Below are positions 3,351 through 14,978 of a stretch of DNA of 64,000 bases, piece by piece. Both the position numbers and the translations under genes were made by a program. Each line of letters opens with the position of its first letter. Within the stretch, counting starts at the first letter, position 1. The stretch is from Asterias amurensis (taxonomy: Eukaryota; Echinodermata; Asteroidea; Forcipulatida; Asteriidae), in the NCBI RefSeq assembly GCF_032118995.1, contig NC_092657.1, forward strand, positions 10,603,391 through 10,667,390, read 5' to 3'. The notes below the pieces were generated by a model that made no database searches, was not told where the DNA came from, and saw only the letters and a list, made by a program, of their open reading frames with translations.

Positions 3351-5614
3351 ATGGCCGGCGCTTCCCGACTTACATTGGACGATGCTCTGCGTCTTGTGGT
3401 GGAGGGTTCTGATGACGATGATGACAATTTGGATCTTCGGATGGATGCTAGTGACATTGATTCACAGGTAATTATTTTGCCATCATTGACTTTCTTTGGT
3501 GACTTTCAAAGCTTTTCATTTTGGAAAGATACTACGTTTACAAAACAACATTCTGGGTTTTACCTTTCCATTTTTCTTATTGGCCTATTTTTAGAAAACA
3601 TGTAAAATATACTAGTTTTATCGTCTACAAAACACCCTTTTATTTTCTAAACTATACCAATACTTTTACCATTGAAACGGGTGTTTAGTAATTTCAAAAA
3701 TTAACATGAAATCATTAGTTTTGGACATGGATTGAACCCAAGATTATTTTTAAAATTAGAAATCAGCTCAAGTTCACTGCAAGGTGATAAAAATCCCGCC
3801 GTCAGCTATAAAGAGAAAGGCTTGTTGCTTCGATATTGACATTACACAATTGAATTCGGTAGTTTAGATTCAAGTATAAATGGACAAAATGGAAACTTGC
3901 ACACCTTTTTTTTTTTTTTTAGAGTGTTTCCCGGCGAAGAGGCGGGAATGGTAGAGGTCGTGTTGACAGAGGTCAGGGTGGCGGTGCTCAAGGTGGTAGA
4001 GGCCGAGGGTGTAATGGAAGAGGAAGAGGAAGAGAGGGCCCTTAAACAACAATGGCGACACTGCCCCTCCAGCAGGATGGTCCAATACCCTGACTGCGCC
4101 CATCATCCATCCCTACACCGAAACCCCAGGGCCCCAGTGCAACCTTCCGTTTGATGCAAAAGAGTTGGAGTTTTTGCTCTGCCTTGTTGGAAATGGCTTC
4201 TTTGTTATTTTGGCTCACATTATAAATATGAATGCCGTCTGTAAAAGGCCCCCAATCATACCAGATGCTAACAACCAATATGCTACGTCTGACAAGTATT
4301 GGAAACCAACTAATGGTAATGAAATCAAGGCCTTTGTCGGTATAAATATCCATATGGGATTGAAACAAATGCCAGAGTACAATGACTACTGGAGCAATGA
4401 CCCATTGATGAATGACAGCTACATAGCTCCACGCTTGTCTAAGAACAGGTAGAGAAATTGTCACAGTTCTTTCACTGTAGCAATCCAGCTGACCCCATTG
4501 ATAACAATGACCGGATCAACAAAGTGCGTAACTTTGTTGAAACACTTGATGAGAACTTCCAACATATGTTGATCCCTGGACAAAACTTGTCTGTAGATGA
4601 AGCGATGATAAAGTACAACGGGAGACTTTCATGGAAACAGTACATGCCTAAAAAAACGACGAAATGGGGAATAAAATTGTGGTTTTTGTGCGATTCAATG
4701 ACTGGCTATTGCTTGACATTTCGTGTCTATACAGGACGTGCTGCCAACACAGACCGGGTACGAGACTTGGGTTTAGCGTATTCCGTCGTGATGGAACTTA
4801 TGCAGAACTATCTGATGCGACATCACCATGTGTTTGCAGATAACTTTTTCTCATCTTTACCTCTTGTGGAGGATCTGTTTGCTGCTGATACGTACTACTG
4901 CGGTACATTGCGGAAGGACAGGGTAGGCATACCCATACAGCTGCAGAATGTGCGTTTGCAAAGCTATGAGAGTGTCAAATGGCAGAAAGATCATTCTCAA
5001 GTAACTGTAAATAACTGGAAAGACAAGAGAAATGTGTACACCATTGCAACCAATAATGATGGCGCTGATGTTCAGAGGGCTCGTACAAGGTTTCGACAAG
5101 ATGAGATGATATCCGTTCCTTCTGTCATTGCTATGTACAACAGGTACATGGGAGGAGTTGACCACTGCGACCAATACCGTTCCTACTATAACGTTAGACG
5201 AACAGGGAGACGTTGGTGGAAGTACTTGTTTTGGGGATTGTTCAACCAGGCTCTTGTGAATGCCTTCATCTTGTGGGAGTTGTCATCAAGACCGCATAAG
5301 AAAGAAAAGCGGAGCTGGTAACTGAAGGCCTTCAAGACGTCAATTGTTCATCAGCTGATGGATGATTTCTCATCGCGTAAAAAACATCAGTGGGTCTTGT
5401 CAAGCGACCTATTTCTCGAACTCTGACAAAAGATCTACACCCTGGCCACCCCCTTGTTCAGTTTGGAGATAGAAAGCGCATATGCGCATGCTGCAAGCAC
5501 AAAGGCAGGATGACGGAAGGCAATCTAGCAGACCAGACCACATTTGGATGTTCCACATGCTCAGTGAACTTGTGCAAAATCAATTGTTTCGGTGAATGGC
5601 ATACTGAACAATGA
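3351..5614 (+). pseudogene. piggyBac transposase with C-terminal zinc finger, broken
   Basis: The start at 3351 (MAGASRLTLDDALRLV, then an acidic run) suits a piggyBac N-terminus. A GT donor follows GATTCACAG near 3467 and an acceptor sits near 3921, leading into an Arg/Gly-rich stretch. The DDE domain follows: IKAFVGINIHMGLKQMPEY, then the three catalytic aspartates in LSVDEAM, HVFADNFFS and MGGVDHCDQY. The cysteine-rich cross-brace finger CACCKHKGRM...CSTCSVNLC closes it at about 5480-5610. Visible damage is a frame change near 4035 after the RG stretch, another near 4453, an in-frame TAA near 5320 and a further shift near 5380. The terminal repeats argue against a domesticated PGBD gene. 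Confidence 0.9.
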
Positions 5615-6955: not shown

Positions 6956-8035
6956 AAGGGCTTTGATGCCACCATCAAGGTGAGAGAGTGGGCAGTCATC
7001 TATCCTGTCGCGCATCATCTGTGGTTCTCCACAATCACAAAGCGGAGATGCAAGATAGCCCCACTTGTGTAGGCTGCTGCGGCATGGCCCTGCGTCTGTA
7101 CGAAACTGATTTAAGACGCACCAATGGTTGCGCGGGAGGTCCAATCCCGGCAGTTGGATGGTGGGGTCAGCAACCAGGAACTTTTGGGGAACGTTGGTGT
7201 GGTCTCGCCACCGTGTGCGTCATAGATCTTCTGCTGTTGCTGCAATGTGGGGGACAATTGACCAAATTGGGTTTCTCGACTTTCTCTAGGGTGGAAGTCA
7301 AGGTCTCTGAGGAGAGGGAGCTCAGGGGTGGATCGGATCTTACAGACCAGCCTAGATGTGGCTACCTCTCTTCGGATGTCTTGAGGGGCAATGTTGCTCA
7401 GGACTGGAAGCCAGTCTGTCTTTGTACTGTTCTCATGGTGTTGTTGAGTTGGACGTCGAGAAGGTCGGTGTGGACAGAATTCCTCCAGACTGGAGCACAG
7501 TACTCAGCCACTGAGTAGCAGAGGGCTAGAGCAGATGTGTCCCTGTCTTAGCTTCCCATGTTGTACCCCCGAGCATGTGGATCAAGTTGTTTCTGGTCTA
7601 GATTTTGGCAGCTACTTTCTGGAGGTGAGGTTTGAAGGTGAGTCTGCGGTCCAGGGTGACGCCAAGGTAAGTCTGTTTGGGGGCGTGGCTCAAACGTTTT
7701 CCGTTGAGAAAGATGTCTAGCTCTTGTTGGCTTTTTGCATTGTGCAGGTGAAAGACACTGGATACTGTTTTAGCCACACTGGGCTGAAGTTGCCAGCGTT
7801 TACAGTATTCACTGATCTTTGCTATGTCATAATTGATAATGTCATCATTGACAGTACTGCCGAGGTCTCCAAACGTTCTTGCTTGATGGGCGAGGCAGAT
7901 ATCATCAGCAAAGATGAACTTTCCGCACATAGTGGCTGGGAGGTCACTTGTGTACAGGTTAAACAGGGTGGGTGCCAGTACCAATCCTTGTGGCAAGCCG
8001 TTCTTCTGCATTGTCTATGAGCTGCATGTGTCTCC
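6956..8035 (-). pseudogene. Jockey-like LINE, 3' part of ORF2 (RT to C-terminus)
   Basis: Minus-strand pieces read NGLPQGLVLAPTLFNLY, the active site FADD (FIFADDICLAHQ) and YLGVTLDRRLTFKPHL at 7600-8010. YSVAEYCAPVW follows near 7500-7590. The C-terminal block at 6960-7144 has HKWGYLASPLCDCGEPQ and a DCPLSHLDGG motif, the cysteine-rich tail seen in invertebrate Jockey-like ORF2. Several frame changes separate the pieces, so the gene is dead. It continues at 14979-15863 on the far side of the RAG1-like transposon. Confidence 0.88.
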
Positions 8036-8049
8036 CACGGCTGTTTCAC
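8036..8049 (+). repeat. Left terminal inverted repeat of the RAG1-like transposon
   Basis: CACGGCTGTTTCAC, identical to the inverted right end at 14961-14974, directly preceded by the target duplication CTCC. Confidence 0.88.
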
Positions 8050-8810
8050 ACGCTATGCAATGCGCGCTATCTAAGTCATGCAGTTTGTTTGTTGTGCTTT
8101 TCGATATTTACTCCACTTACGTTAACAAACGTACATTGATAGGTAGCCATTGCGCAATCAACCGTACGCTACTCGCCGCATACGCGGCAGTAAAAGTTGT
8201 CAAATTGTCCGTTTTTCTCGTTGCCTTGAACTGTTTTAGGTCTGTAATCCTTCGAAATGAGATTCCCAGTCAGATTATACGAAATGTTTCTTATAATTGT
8301 CACAATATTTCGAAGTTTAAGTATTTTTGTGGTGCTTTTTTCGATCGTAGGTTAAATCCACGGGAAAAAAACTTGCTCCAGTAAATCTTGAAATGTCATC
8401 AAGTTGAGCATAGTCAGCAAATTTAATCACTTCCACTGTATTACTACATAAATTTGACATAATAAAATACCTACTCGGACTTTGGGACATTGGGTAATAA
8501 TTTAGAAATCCTTCTTGAAAAACGTAAACATTAAGCATCCCACAACGCAGTTTTGACGAACCATGCACATCAGACGACTTTGCTCGCTGGTTAACAAAGG
8601 CATCAACTGCGGTACAACACACACAGCGCGCATGGTACCAGTTATTTTGCCGTGAGAAGCGCGGGGGTATTGAATACTACAGTATACAGTTTTGTTTATT
8701 TGTTGTGATTATGTTACGGTCTTCCGTGAAGAGAGCTGACAACAATAAAAATGCTACAAAGACTTCAGTTCATTTTAAGTGTTTCATAATGATTTATTGC
8801 TCTTTCAAAC

Positions 8811-11800
8811 ATGAGTTTCAAATTCCACCAGTTAGGATTAACAAAAATATGTAGGGTATGTACAAATCGAGTAAAAACATCAACAAGAAAACCAACAGTA
8901 TGCAAAGAATTCGTCAAGGAAATTTACAATGTATTTGATGTATGTACATGGGCTGACACTCCTGATCAACATCCCCATCATCTTTGTGAACTATGTGCGA
9001 GGAAGGTTCGTCACCAGAGAGCTGGTACTCGTGATTACGGTTTTAAGATTACTTCACTAACACAGCGGATTCAGAAAGACTGGCAAAAACATCCAAGGAC
9101 AGGGTCATGTGATGTGTGTGAACTACTCCAAAAACAATCGCAAGGAGGTCCCAAACCATCATCAACCAAACCCAAAAGAGGACAACCTGTGAAAGTCAAC
9201 GCCCAACAGATAATTCTTCCATATGACTGTTCATCAGAAAATATTTTCTGCTTTCTGCAAATGCCAACGGCTACCTTCCATCAGCAGGTCTCAGCCAGCA
9301 TAGAAATTATCGGACATATTGAACAAAGTCTGTTTACATGTGCCATTTGCCTGTGTATTTTAAGCAGACCCTGTGTACAGACACCATGCCAGCATAATTA
9401 TTGTGCAGTATGTTTGTCAGCTTACTTTACACATCACAAATTGACTGAGCTTAAATGCCCAATATGTATGAAACTGGTCAACTTCAACAAAGTAACAGCA
9501 AGTCCAAGGGTTCTTTGTGTTCAGCTTGACAGCTTGGATGTTGCATGTAACAAATGCAGCCAAATTGGCAACATCCACAAAGTTGTGGGTCACAAATGTG
9601 AAGTGACTGTTGATGTTCGGCCGAGAGTGACCATAGTAAAACATTCAAAAGTTATCGAGTCCCAGGCGAAAAGCACAACAACTTTCAGCACCAGAGTAAC
9701 CGATGCTGCAAGACTGCTAAAATCCCTTGCTAACGATCACCAACAGGGCAATCCCATTCCCCATGAAATAGAGCAAGCCGCTGATAAATGGACTTGGATC
9801 AAGCTGAACGAACACAAAGAGCACAAGGCTTATCTTCACACTGGTGGAAGAGTAAGTAATAAATTGTTATTGTTTTTAAGAAAATATTGCCACTCAAACA
9901 AACTTCAAAACTAAAATATATTTTTAACAGTAAAAGCAGGCTTAACTTTTTTTGTAAAATTTGTATGTACAGATAAGAAGGAACTTTTCACGTTTACAAA
10001 ATTTCTTTTGAAGAATAATTTAAACATCTTAAAACAGGTTTGTTAACTGAACATCATGATTGTTTTACTTGATCATGTACATGTAAGTCATTATAATATT
10101 GCACAAGTTGCTCCCAAAACATTTAAATTTAAGTTAACAAAACTAAATGTACAATAAATATATGATAGTGTTTTACAAACATTGCTAACCAGAATTGATA
10201 AAACATATAACATCACAAAAAATTTAAAAATTTAAAGAATTCAAAATGACTTAAATTGTATTTTCCAGCCTGCGTTAGTTCAGAAAGTGACAAAGACAAC
10301 CGAGTTAGAGTCTGCTGCCAAGAGTGCATCTGATACTGGGCAGAGTACGATGTCTGCGAATCAAGCATTAGCTATGATGCGTGACTGCCACCTTGCATGG
10401 GACCAGCTTCGAAAGCTGAAAAGGTACATTTGGTTTGTTTGCAAATTTATTATTTGTTTTTAGACTATTTGAGTTATATGCATCATTTTTGTAATGCTTT
10501 CCGCAATCTCCAATTACACTCTTTGATCACCGACTTAATGTACAATTTGAAATATAAGAACAAGTTAATATTGTTATGTTTGTATTTTTTGTACAGGTAT
10601 ATACCTAAAGGCTTCACAATTTCATCAGAAAGGAAAATGAGGAAGCAACAAGACATCTTCATCAAGGATAACCTGTGTGGGGAAATGATTAAGCTTGTGT
10701 TTCCTTCCACCAAGGCAGATGGCATCAATGGCTTTGAAACAAAAGAAACCCCTTTTGTTTATATCAACAACCTGCCTTCCCTAATTTTGGACTACCTTGA
10801 CCGCCTTGACAGGTACATTTACTTATAGGTACAATTTAAGCTGTGCAAGTACATTGTATGCTTGACAATGTTTTTAAATAACAAGTTTGAATTTTTTTCT
10901 CAACAGTGCTGGGCTTTTGGTGTGGCATGATGGAGTTATTCCGAAGGATGAAGTCTGGTTGAAAATTGGCGGGGACAAGGGAGGGACATCTTTTATGATG
11001 AACTTCCAGATAGTGAATGTGTCTCATCCAAATTCACTCAGCAACACAATTGTGTTCATTGTTTTTGAGGGAAGTGATTCCCTGGTCAATTTGCAATGTA
11101 CACTCCCCAAACTCATGAGACAGATAGCTGACTTGGCAACAGTAAAGTGGAGGTGAGATGTGTACTTTAACCTGTGATTTTACTACAATTAAGTTAAATA
11201 AGTTACATGTAACATTTTCTATGAGATAATATATGCAAAAAATTAACCTTGTTTACCCCTTTGTTTTCTTTGGGTGGCAATCGCTTTTGCAGAGACAAGT
11301 CCTTTCGACTTCTATGTTTTGGAGATTACGAGCTCTTGAACAAGACTTACGGCCTTTGTGGTTGCAACGGTAAGTACATGTATATTTCTGGTTAATAATA
11401 ATAAAATCATGACTTTTATAATTTTGAAAAAATAATGTAGATTTTAAATTAATTTTATTTTTTTTGCATCATTACAGCTCGTTACTGTTGCATTTATTGC
11501 AAAGCTTCCAAAGAAATGATGCAAAAACCCTTAGCTGAACGTGGACTATCCCCTGCAAGATCACTGAATGATATTAAAGACAACCACCAACACTTTCTCA
11601 AAAGTGGTGCCAAAAGGAGTCAAGCCAAAGATATTTCCTTCAGTGTTGTCAGTGAGCCGCTTATCCCCATAGAAGTTGATCATGTAAGTCAAATGTAACT
11701 TAATTAACTTTTTTAAGGGGATATGTTGTCATGATCAAAGCAGGTCTGTTGCTGTACATGGAATTATCAACTCACCAGTTACAACACCGACACGCACACT

Positions 11801-13534
11801 CTCTGCTTGAAAAGCTAACAATTCCATGTAGAGTCACAGGCCTGCTTTGTTACTATTTAATGACTTACCAGTACTAGCTTGCATGTTTATATACATGTAC
11901 ACATGTATACATCTTTTGGGAAAGTATGCAACTTTTATGTACATGTTCTTCTATCATTAGGTTATACTTCCCAGTCTTCACATCTCACTTGGAGTTTTTA
12001 AGAAGCTCTTTGACCTGTTTGAGAGTGACTGCCACAGATTAGACGAGCACCTCTTCAAGTTGCGAGCTCAAGTGGAAGATGAGGATGAAGATGAGGATGA
12101 AGATGAACATCGCGACACTAACTTTGATGTGCAAATTGCCACTTCTGTTAAGCAGCGAAACCACATTGCAGAACAACTGACGAAGAAAAAATCACGCCTT
12201 GAAGAACTCGAGGATGATCTACCCCTGTATGTATTCCAGCACACTGAGCAGCAAGATGTGGATGCTGAATTCCGTCAGATGGCAACTGAGACATATCAGT
12301 TGAGAGTCGATGTACATGGCCTGGTGAGTTTGACATGTAAAACACAATGCAGTCTCAATATTCTTGGAATAATGAATTTAGCATGCAAAATTATTGTGTC
12401 CATTTGTTTTTCGCAGGAAATCGAAATGAATCGTGCTGACCTTGCCTATGGAACTGGTCCTGTTGTCAGCTCCTTGGACAAAGTTTTGTCAAGGTTTCAT
12501 GTTCAGCGACAGGCCTACCACGGGAAGTCATTTGTGGGCAACCATGTTCATCGATGCTGCACTGTAAGTACCAGCAATATGCATTAAATCGCGAGGGCCA
12601 TCTCGCAAACTCCAAACAAAGTTCAGTTAAGTTTATAAACAAAAGCTGCATTTTCCATCAACAGGTTGAAGTCATTGAAGCATTGACTGCGGCTCCAATG
12701 AAGGTCATGCTGGAAAATATGACGGATGATGTTCCTCTTGCAGCCCACGAACGACTTCTCATGGAATCTGCGAACATAAAGAAAAAATACAGTGACATAT
12801 TTCTTAAGTTCGCAGATGTACATCATGGCATCAACCATGCGAGGGCAATCTCACCACAAGAACTTAATCAGATTGGTAATCTTTGTTTTATATTCTGCTT
12901 TGAAAAAATGTACGTTGGTTTTTATATATTTCCTGCACTTGGTTTCTGCTACACTATAGTAAACATTAATAAGCTGAAACAAAACTGAACACTCGAATTG
13001 ACCATTTTTTGGTGCATAGAAACTTTTATAGTGAGAATTTTTTCTGAGCCAACTTTGTAGCAAATTCACACAAGACAAGTGGGCATGGAACAATCTGCCG
13101 GCTGGATAATCTTTGTGAAAAGTTAACTGGTGTCAGCAACTTCATAATTTTTCACTTTCAGTCTTACACTTAGATTGTTATGATAGATAATTACCACTTA
13201 CATTTTTGTGTTTGTGCTAAATGTAGATATCTGCATCAAAGAATTCCTGAACTCATTCCGTGCATCATTCCCAAGCTCCAACATCTCACCAAAGCTCCAT
13301 CTTTTGGAAGATCATGCCGTCGAGCAGCTGAGAAAATTCCGGGTAGGATTCGGTCTGCTAAATGAACAAGGTGGCGAGCTGATACACACAGACTTCAACA
13401 GAACTGGACGAGTGGTGCACGGAATGAGGGATCCCCTTCAACGACTGATGGCTGTCATGAGAAGACACCTTGTGGGCACAACACCAGAAGTGCAGACAAA
13501 CATCGCCAAAACCTCCAGAAAGCATGAATGTTAA
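8811..13534 (+). CDS. RAG1-like transposase with N-terminal zinc region and RING finger, ten exons, open throughout
   Basis: Proposed exons: 8811-9851, 10269-10423, 10597-10812, 10907-11152, 11293-11369, 11478-11683, 11961-12323, 12417-12563, 12665-12875, 13227-13534. All introns are GT-AG, phases match, and the frame holds for 989 residues. Residues 14-103 carry CxxC, HxxxxCxxC and HxxxxxCxxC pairs laid out like the RAG1 N-terminal zinc region. A C3HC4 RING follows at C177-C219, then a CCHC-like finger at 246-263. The nuclease core shows D494 (KIGGDKGG), D564 (CFGDYE), a CxxC at 583-586 (CCIYC), and H912, H917 and E934 (PKLHLLEDH, NEQGGE). That is the order and spacing style of RAG1 D600, D708, its zinc ligands and E962. 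Residues encoded near 12080 form an acidic run. The start is the first ATG of the open exon. Likely role: cutting at the CAC ends for transposition. Confidence 0.88.
11736..11849. repeat. Short MITE in an intron of the RAG1-like gene
   Basis: CAAAGCAGGTCTGTTGCT at the left end recurs inverted at the right end as AGAGTCACAGGCCTGCTTTG, with TACATGGAATT also shared. About 114 bases, nested in the sixth intron, so it leaves the coding frame intact. Confidence 0.6.
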
Positions 13535-13792
13535 AGACAAAATTATAAATTAGTGATGCGGATCATGCCAATATTGACCAAGAAAGGGTTTTTAGTTTGA
13601 AAGTGTAAAAATCATCACTTCTTGCTTAAAATAACCTGCATGTGAACAGCAAACAAACAACAACTAACATGCGCCGAGTGATAATTAATGTTAAGTACGA
13701 AGTCTGTTCGTACAAAAAATACGACATTCAAAAACAAGATCCTATTCATTATTCTTAGTAATTAATCCCATCATCTTTCAACCAACAACGGC

Positions 13793-13972
13793 TAAAGCCC
13801 GGTTCATACTTCCTGCGAATGCGAAGCGAATTTGACGTCACAACCCTCCTTTCGCAGCTTTATTCATAAGTGAGTCAAACAGAGTTCAACTGCTGCGAAT
13901 TGTTCATTGCGAATGCGTGACGCCAACATTTGCTTCGCAATCGCATTTGCAGGAAGTATGAACCAGACTTTA
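13793..13972. repeat. Palindromic MITE in the 3' part of the RAG1-like transposon
   Basis: The left arm GGTTCATACTTCCTGCGAAT and the inverted right arm GGTTCATACTTCCTGCAAAT are near-identical, with GCGAAGCGAA and TTGCTTCGCAA further in. About 180 bases, no coding potential. Confidence 0.7.
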
Positions 13973-14164
13973 TTATGCTTCAATTCAACTGAAAACAGCG
14001 CAACAAATTCTATTTCCAAAATAAAATAAAACTAATGGACCGTCAGAAAGTGTCAGTTTATTTTCTTGAGTTGAGAGTTTTTGTTTATAATAATAAAATA
14101 AATATATTAAAATTGTTGATAAATTAAATTTTCATTTTAATTACAAAATAATTATTTTATTAAG

Positions 14165-14290
14165 TGTCCTGTAAACACAGCACAGCAAAAGCTTTTGCCC
14201 CATGAATTGTACTATATTATATAATAATTACCCAGCACAGCAATTGCTTTTGCCATGAATTGTACTATATATTATATAATAATTACCCAC
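14165..14290 (+). repeat. AT-rich tandem duplication
   Basis: A unit of about 60 bases (AGCACAGCA, then GCTTTTGCC, CATGAATTGTACTATAT and ATAATAATTACCCA) occurs twice in a row within the 3' non-coding part of the RAG1-like transposon. Confidence 0.7.
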
Positions 14291-14960
14291 CCCATCTACC
14301 CACCTATCTTTATCCATGATCCCATCAACAGACAAAAAAAAAGAAGTAGGCCTACGTTTACTCAGGTTTTTTTAGGCCCAACGTGTGTACACTGTGATGT
14401 ATGTACCAATTGTACATACATGTAGTTTACACACGAAACATGATCCCCACGTGTGCGTGTACAAAAAAAACTCAAAAAAAATCACAAAAGTTAGAAGACG
14501 ATTTGCTAATTAAAACCAAATGTCCCAGACTTACCTTTCACATATCCACTTGAAAAGGTCATTAGATGACAGACTTGCTTGAAGATAGCAACAACAAATG
14601 CTCAGGCTTTTTTTAAATGATACAAATCTCACGTCGTTTTTCACATCAGAGCAAGCCACATTTCGCGTCGCCTGGCCGCACACATCGGAGTTTCCGAAGT
14701 AGTCTCTACGTCAAGAAGTTCAGCAAACAAGCCCACTGGGATTGAAAAAAGACTGTAGCACACGTAACTCAGACAATCCCAAACAAAAATAAACGACTTG
14801 ACAGTCATAGCCAATGAACGAACAGAATTTGCAGTACGTCACAACATCGACAACTGGCGAGTTTTATCTTTCGTCCTTTAAATAAACAATGACGTCACGC
14901 GTTTTGACAAGCAAATCGCGCTAAGCAATAACAACCGCGAGAGGGCGCACTTTTTTTTGC

Positions 14961-14974
14961 GTGAAACAGCCGTG
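14961..14974 (-). repeat. Right terminal inverted repeat of the RAG1-like transposon
   Basis: GTGAAACAGCCGTG, the exact inverse of the left end, followed at once by the duplicated target CTCC. Confidence 0.88.
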
Positions 14975-14978
14975 CTCC

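Follow-up and report, generated by a model that had tools for sequence, protein, structure and literature searches.

The stretch of DNA analyzed here (the window, 64,000 nucleotides at C10:10603391-10667390 of the starfish Asterias amurensis) contains a 6939-bp DNA transposon with perfect terminal inverted repeats (TIRs), a target-site duplication (TSD) on each side, and a ten-exon gene whose protein joins a RAG1-type N-terminal zinc region and RING to a DDE (Asp-Asp-Glu) transposase core of the Chapaev type. Genome-wide searches covered 491,506,623 bases in 23 contigs. The features of the element, in window coordinates, are as follows.

8036..14974, forward strand: whole element, almost certainly a Chapaev transposon, 6939 bp (ends, TSD, copies, empty sites)
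8032..8035, unstranded: left TSD, CTCC (sequence; only one CTCC in the paralogous empty sites L057 and L058)
8036..8049, forward strand: left TIR, 14/14 (sequence)
14961..14974, reverse strand: right TIR, 14/14 (sequence)
14975..14978, unstranded: right TSD, CTCC (sequence; empty sites)
8811..9851, forward strand: exon 1, with the start codon, N-terminal zinc region, RING and second zinc motif (same protein in NCBI)
8811..9143, forward strand: RAG1-type N-terminal zinc region ("Chapa" region), residues 1-111, compared with the RAG1 N-terminus (hhalign, shuffle controls)
9339..9467, forward strand: C3HC4 RING finger, residues 177-219 (Pfam, ligand conservation, RAG1 RING match)
9546..9599, forward strand: post-RING zinc motif, residues 246-263 (profile alignment, conservation)
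10269..10423, forward strand: exon 2 (exon model)
10597..10812, forward strand: exon 3 (exon model)
10907..11152, forward strand: exon 4, with the proposed first catalytic Asp, D494 (codon 10974-10976; D in 26/26 rows)
11293..11369, forward strand: exon 5, with the proposed second Asp, D564 (codon 11324-11326; D in 25/26 rows, 1 gap)
11478..11683, forward strand: exon 6, with the C(2)C motif C583/C586 (exon model, alignment)
11961..12323, forward strand: exon 7, with the LH motif L653-H654 (exon model, alignment)
12417..12563, forward strand: exon 8 (exon model)
12665..12875, forward strand: exon 9 (exon model)
13227..13534, forward strand: exon 10 and stop, with H912/H917 of the H(4)H motif and E934/E938 as candidates for the catalytic Glu (exon model, alignment)
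13792..13972, unstranded: nested high-copy repeat of ~180 bp, partly self-complementary (covered in all three copies)

Gene and ends of the element

The ten joined exons give 2970 nucleotides and 989 amino acids with a single, terminal stop. All nine introns are GT-AG, and eight of them would bring in-frame stops if retained. An NCBI model from Asterias amurensis is identical to the predicted 989-residue protein, letter for letter; together with the exon model, it bears out the open 989-codon reading over nine consensus introns proposed by the first-pass annotation, which had been made from the letters of this DNA.

That annotation had also described perfect 14-base inverted ends between matching CTCC flanks, and both descriptions stand. 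The TIR, CACGGCTGTTTCAC, occurs at 8036-8049 (+) and 14961-14974 (-) with 0 mismatches, so that the element has the Chapaev-type ends CAC...GTG, and CTCC is present at 8032-8035 and 14975-14978. Within the window, the 14-mer has two matches at no more than 2 mismatches (0.34 expected), and at least two such near-matches were reached in 5 of 100 shuffled windows; the 14-mers by themselves are therefore only mildly improbable, and we rejected the 14-mer on its own as decisive evidence. The case for a transposon is the combination of the TIRs with the TSDs and further copies. Genome-wide, 21 exact TIR matches were found, against 2 for the reversed control pattern. A second conserved box may lie around base 26 of the ends: of 10 distinct ends, 6 contain the word TGCG there (0.05 per 26-mer as background), a hint only, as the word was chosen after the ends had been inspected.

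Copies, empty sites and recent movement

Three full-length, near-identical copies are present in the genome: the window copy, C21:8082466-8089405 and C10:10352222-10359303. Each has its own duplicated TSD (CTCC, TCCT and ACAG, respectively; 4 bp in 3/3), and the other copies with the same ends and 4-base duplications that the first-pass annotation had named as a test of its reading do exist. Over 6939 positions, 14 mismatches and a gap of 1 base separate the window copy from the C21 copy. The other copy on C10 shows 21 mismatches to the window copy, together with 5 gap blocks, of which one covers 137 columns. The window and C21 copies both have open 989-amino-acid frames, 4 amino-acid differences apart; the other C10 copy is broken, with 34 stops in the joined frame and a GC splice donor at intron 6. 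The nested ~180-bp repeat is covered in all three copies and therefore probably predates the spread of the element.

Two sequences resembling long interspersed nuclear elements (LINEs), L057 and L058, are paralogous empty sites, in which the flanks continue across the junction with one CTCC each. Identity over aligned bases is 92% and 91% on the left and 95% and 89% on the right for L057 and L058, respectively, and ~40 bases of the right flank are absent from the LINE-like host copy in the window. The element is a recently mobile DNA transposon.

The ten-exon gene is open amid broken elements and NCBI labels its product isoform X2, as might suit a domesticated host gene lying by chance between repeats. 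Against this, the TIR-bounded unit lies at three sites with different TSDs, one copy is broken, and synonymous to non-synonymous codon differences of 2:4, 4:5 and 4:5 for the three copy pairs give no sign of purifying selection, albeit with tiny numbers. A domesticated gene was rejected on the three sites with three different duplications, and we regard it as barely conceivable.

Assignment to the Chapaev group

The window protein contains DUF1280 (PF06918) at 69.2 bits (cut-off 25), a domain described as that of Chapaev transposases (PMC3985635). The hallmarks given for Chapaev are a 3- to 4-bp TSD, CAC...GTG ends and the motifs C(2)C, LH and H(4)H (PMC4079192); the starfish element has CAC...GTG ends, a 4-bp TSD and a DDE core with C(2)C, LH, H(4)H and DUF1280.

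When the core (residues 440-989) served as the query, at least 26 proteins, itself included, were retrieved from 7991 scored candidates, compared with only 2 for the full-length protein. Among the matches listed, DUF1280 is present in 26/26, and the named sources comprise echinoderms, lancelet, Hydra and the sponge Ephydatia; P0020 and P0021, labeled with an "Em" code, are read as Ephydatia by their likeness to P0023. In the alignment of these 26 proteins, query among them, the proposed catalytic positions and the motif positions are strongly conserved: D494 in 26/26, D564 in 25/26, C583 and C586 in 24/26 each, H654 in 22/26 (4 gaps), H912 in 26/26, H917 in 25/26, and E934 and E938 in 25/26 each. 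D564 lies opposite the Asp of the RAG1 GTGYD in the hhalign alignment; the choice between E934 and E938 as the Glu opposite RAG1 E962 depends on a 0.5-bit alignment. In a maximum-likelihood tree of 23 of these cores, the two Asterias proteins group with one Antedon and one Lytechinus protein (support 100/99).

Two Chapaev subgroups bearing a Chapa domain and a RING were reported in 2015 (Kapitonov and Koonin, PMC4411706), and the window protein, with its zinc region, then RING, then core, fits this subgroup as matched to the published description. Chapaev3 was rejected, as the TSDs are 4 bp and not the 3-bp TWA of its definition (PMC4079192). From the published hallmarks and our own tree of 23 cores, we are highly confident that the element is a young, autonomous-looking Chapaev-group transposon; the suggestion of the first-pass annotation that it was possibly Chapaev-related was correct, given the DUF1280 core, CAC...GTG ends, 4-bp TSD and Chapaev motifs.

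No report of the A. amurensis element was found in the literature searched, and Repbase, which lay outside the search, may have an entry. The word "Chapaev" does not occur in the main text of the 2023 A. amurensis assembly paper (PMC10625585). The combination of Chapaev with a RAG1-type head has been known since 2015 (PMC4411706), and the starfish element is an additional case.

The RAG1-type head

RAG1 is the enzyme that cuts antibody genes. When family profiles were paired with hhalign, the region ahead of the RING (11 Chapaev rows against 13 RAG1 rows) matched RAG1 with a probability of 99.0 (P 2.3e-18, 104 collinear columns), the RING and following zinc motif with 99.0 (P 7e-18), and the two combined with 99.8 (P 3.6e-30); two mismatched control comparisons stayed under 1. 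With the RAG1 columns shuffled and the Cys/His columns fixed or free, 0/60 shuffles reached the real score in each of six tests, two of which were on the core. The profile of 26 proteins, compared with solved structures, had RAG1 as its top match (6oem, E 4.3e-24, RAG1 residues 141-408), with the top non-RAG1 chain at 3.9e-10, and also matched the RAG1 N-terminal piece 21wb (E 1.3e-6) ahead of the RING. Pfam scans were run on 12 of the 26 homologues: PF12560 (RAG1 N-terminal) was above its cut-off in 3/12 (sea urchin P0004, crinoid P0010 and sponge P0020) and under it in P0018 and P0021, and the scan did not find it in the window protein or in P0002, a second A. amurensis Chapaev. As a family profile, the N-terminus and RING are clearly homologous to those of RAG1. 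The first-pass annotation had read a zinc region of the RAG1 N-terminal type and a RING in the same chain as a nuclease core; the profile matches and shuffles uphold the zinc region and the RING, and the core is of the DDE type.

Several points weigh against reading the element as a young, autonomous-looking transposon with a RAG1-type head. Taken singly, the window protein has the TRIM2 RING as its best solved match (8e-6), with RAG1 chains at E 0.012, and its own RING reaches only E 4e-4 with Pfam models, under the curated cut-offs, although two RING models exceed the cut-off in P0002, which is 52% identical to it. Only three close full-length copies were found in the genome. Finally, one of the amino-acid differences between the window and C21 copies falls at a position that is invariant in the other 25 aligned proteins, seven residues C-terminal of the proposed first catalytic Asp. 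The window copy may have been weakened by this change, and activity of its open frame is therefore not to be assumed. The claim that the element is intact accordingly stands for the TIRs, the TSD and the open frame, and is qualified by this one change.

Elsewhere, C15:119711-120559 (-) has a PF12560 match over the cut-off and a RAG1 RING-like match in a 587-amino-acid open frame, with no DUF1280 match listed nearby; this could be a head-only gene.

Core versus head and the origin of the RAG1 N-terminus

The Chapaev core was paired with the RAG1 core at an hhalign probability of 40 (P 3e-4) over 165 columns round the second Asp and the CxxC. The RAG1-core Pfam family had 0 matches in the 12 proteins scanned, DUF1280 being present instead. 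The first-pass annotation had spoken of a RAG1-like nuclease core; the core is that of Chapaev (DUF1280), and with no RAG1-core Pfam match and a marginal similarity, "RAG1-like" therefore fits the head and not the engine.

The element could alternatively be RAG-like (RAGL/ProtoRAG) or Transib and so directly related to the engine of the V(D)J recombinase. No other solved protein listed fits the head family profile as well as RAG1 does, and none of the 60 shuffles in either of two controls reached the marginal core similarity at the second Asp and CxxC. However, the TSD is 4 bp in all three copies and not the 5 bp cited for Transib and RAG (PMC8355894), no kelch Pfam match indicating a RAG2-like partner gene was found in 14 further open reading frames (ORFs) scanned in or overlapping the element, and separate RAG1-like cores exist on C2 (C2:20538204-20539874 (-) and C2:9156702-9158372 (-)), each in a 609-amino-acid open frame and both 32% identical to Xenopus RAG1 471-1010. 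The starfish therefore has RAG1-like cores besides its RAG1-headed Chapaevs. RAGL/Transib membership was rejected on the 4-bp TSD and the lack of a RAG1-core Pfam match, Transib being judged by description, and we consider it very improbable.

Between single sequences, 119/156 head pairs but only 9/208 core pairs fell below E 1e-3, with mismatched controls at 0/156 and 0/208. At the same threshold for profiles against single sequences, the Chapaev head profile matched 13/13 RAG1 heads and the RAG1 head profile 11/12 Chapaev heads, whereas the RAG1 core profile matched 0/16 Chapaev cores. The Chapaev core profile did match 3/13 RAG1 cores, which counts, as do the 9 core pairs, in favor of the RAGL/Transib reading; the core similarity is faint, not nil, and is best called marginal. 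Within each family the core is the better kept part. Mean identity is 25% for the head and 33% for the core in Chapaev (core higher in 34/36 pairs), and 42% and 81%, respectively, in RAG1 (core higher in 78/78 pairs).

If head and core had traveled together, the core would be expected to be the easier part to recognize between families. The head is closer between families, though the core is better kept within each, and this contrast therefore favors an exchange of modules over plain joint inheritance. In one such exchange, the N-terminal third of RAG1 (zinc region, RING, second zinc motif) would have been grafted from a Chapaev-like transposase onto a Transib-type engine, or in the opposite direction, long after these engines had diverged. 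We put this forward only tentatively, because the profile of the RAG1 core has little depth (13 vertebrate proteins, with Transib and invertebrate RAG1L cores lying outside it), small zinc domains can remain recognizable through their fixed ligands, and a core may diverge fast on adopting new ends. If such a graft took place, the head and core of RAG1 differ in age and parentage, and the donor lineage survives today in the starfish element.

According to the scenario published by Kapitonov and Koonin in 2015 (PMC4411706), RAG1 and Chapaev inherited head and core jointly and Transib lost the head, so that the likeness of the heads reflects vertical descent. The head is old, because it is found in sponge, Hydra and echinoderm Chapaevs, and the core similarity to RAG1, faint as it is, exceeds the shuffles; both agree with joint inheritance, and the head/core contrast described above runs against it. 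We give it about an even chance. The origin of the non-core N-terminus of RAG1 thus has two published answers, joint Chapaev ancestry (PMC4411706) or recombination with an N-terminal-like element, the N-RAG-TP idea (PMC8355894). For the Chapaev side, the starfish element is a young example that is almost unbroken, and two of its copies have open frames. The mismatch in head and core conservation makes the question computable given RAGL and Transib sequences, and the element may serve as a system for the role of a RAG1-type N-terminus and RING in a transposase.

Related elements in the genome

P0002 (1025 amino acids) has the same head and core as the window protein, with 52% full-length identity, and belongs to a separate family. 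It is encoded at L050, with a near-identical sequence at L051. In tblastn of P0002 against L050, 6/8 pieces were 97-100% identical and the 2 lower pieces span introns. L050 has the 4-bp TSD AGCC and one end with 3 mismatches to the 14-mer; no TSD was found at the ends of L051. Among ten element-sized end pairs with ends within 3 mismatches (window, L039-L043, L046, L048, L050 and L051), a 4-bp duplication is present in 6/10 and absent in L041, L042, L046 and L051.

When six Chapaev proteins were compared with 18 loci (tblastn at 1e-4), no match was obtained at 10 loci (L041-L043, L047, L048 and L052-L056), and the longest ORF of L043 is 137 amino acids. These ten may be non-autonomous relatives. 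Among them, L041, L042, L043 and L048 are units of 4.5 kb and 6.4 kb with the same 14-bp ends (one end of L048 with 1 mismatch) in which tblastn detected no transposase; L043 and L048 have the TSDs GGCG and GGGT, and L041 and L042 have none. It is possible that these four are non-autonomous riders.

DUF1280 matches are concentrated on C10, which makes up 4.6% of the genome and holds 13/19 of them, 11 inside 8.5-12.6 Mb (the window lies at 10.60-10.67 Mb), with a binomial P of 8e-14 that assumes independent, even placement, which is untrue of copies. C10 also holds 7/21 exact TIRs. Other families show a weaker excess there (piggyBac 9/70, P 0.005; hAT 2/18, P 0.2), and a general transposon sink therefore explains at most part of the clustering. 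The clustering may reflect local hopping or a refuge of low recombination.

Other repeats in the window

A piggyBac-type transposase remnant (PF13843, 206 bits) lies at 4264-5321 of the window; it is split, its first part forming a piece of its own, and each piece has a stop. LINE-like pieces occupy 181-2320 and include an endonuclease frame (PF14529) and two overlapping ORFs that, on visual inspection only, hold a frame resembling reverse transcriptase.

Proposed mechanism

The single gene is predicted to produce a 989-amino-acid transposase with the zinc region, RING, second zinc motif and a DUF1280/ribonuclease-H-like DDE core. This core would pair the two 14-bp CAC...GTG ends, perhaps assisted by the second box ~25 bp internal to them. 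The element would then be excised and joined to a staggered 4-bp target, whose repair would leave the 4-bp duplication. The RING probably acts as a dimerizing and/or ubiquitin-ligase accessory, by analogy with RAG1, and the element may still be able to move.

Comparison with known systems

As in vertebrate RAG1, the starfish protein has, in collinear order, a zinc region at the N-terminus, a RING and a further zinc motif. It also has the motifs C(2)C and H(4)H, placed as in RAG1 between the second D and the E, a signature common to the CMC/Transib group (PMC12730594). It differs in a core that is only marginally alignable, in a 4-bp rather than a 5-bp TSD, and in that a RAG2-like partner was not found among the ORFs scanned. 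Like RAGL, ProtoRAG and TransibSU, the element is a DNA transposon with RAG1-type N-terminal zinc motifs, and a RING is present in some of those; echinoderm RAG1L is described as lacking it (PMC7204232). Those systems differ in having a RAG2L partner and a RAG1/Transib-type core. With Aplysia N-RAG-TP, compared by description, it has in common a RAG1 N-terminus-like sequence in a transposon, whereas N-RAG-TP consists wholly of N-terminal-like sequence (PMC8355894).

The closest likeness is to the Chapaevs described with Chapa and RING (PMC4411706), which have the same CAC...GTG ends, 3- to 4-bp TSD, DUF1280-type core and complex N-terminal zinc region followed by a RING. From these, again compared by description, the element differs as a starfish family whose copies are up to 99.8% alike.

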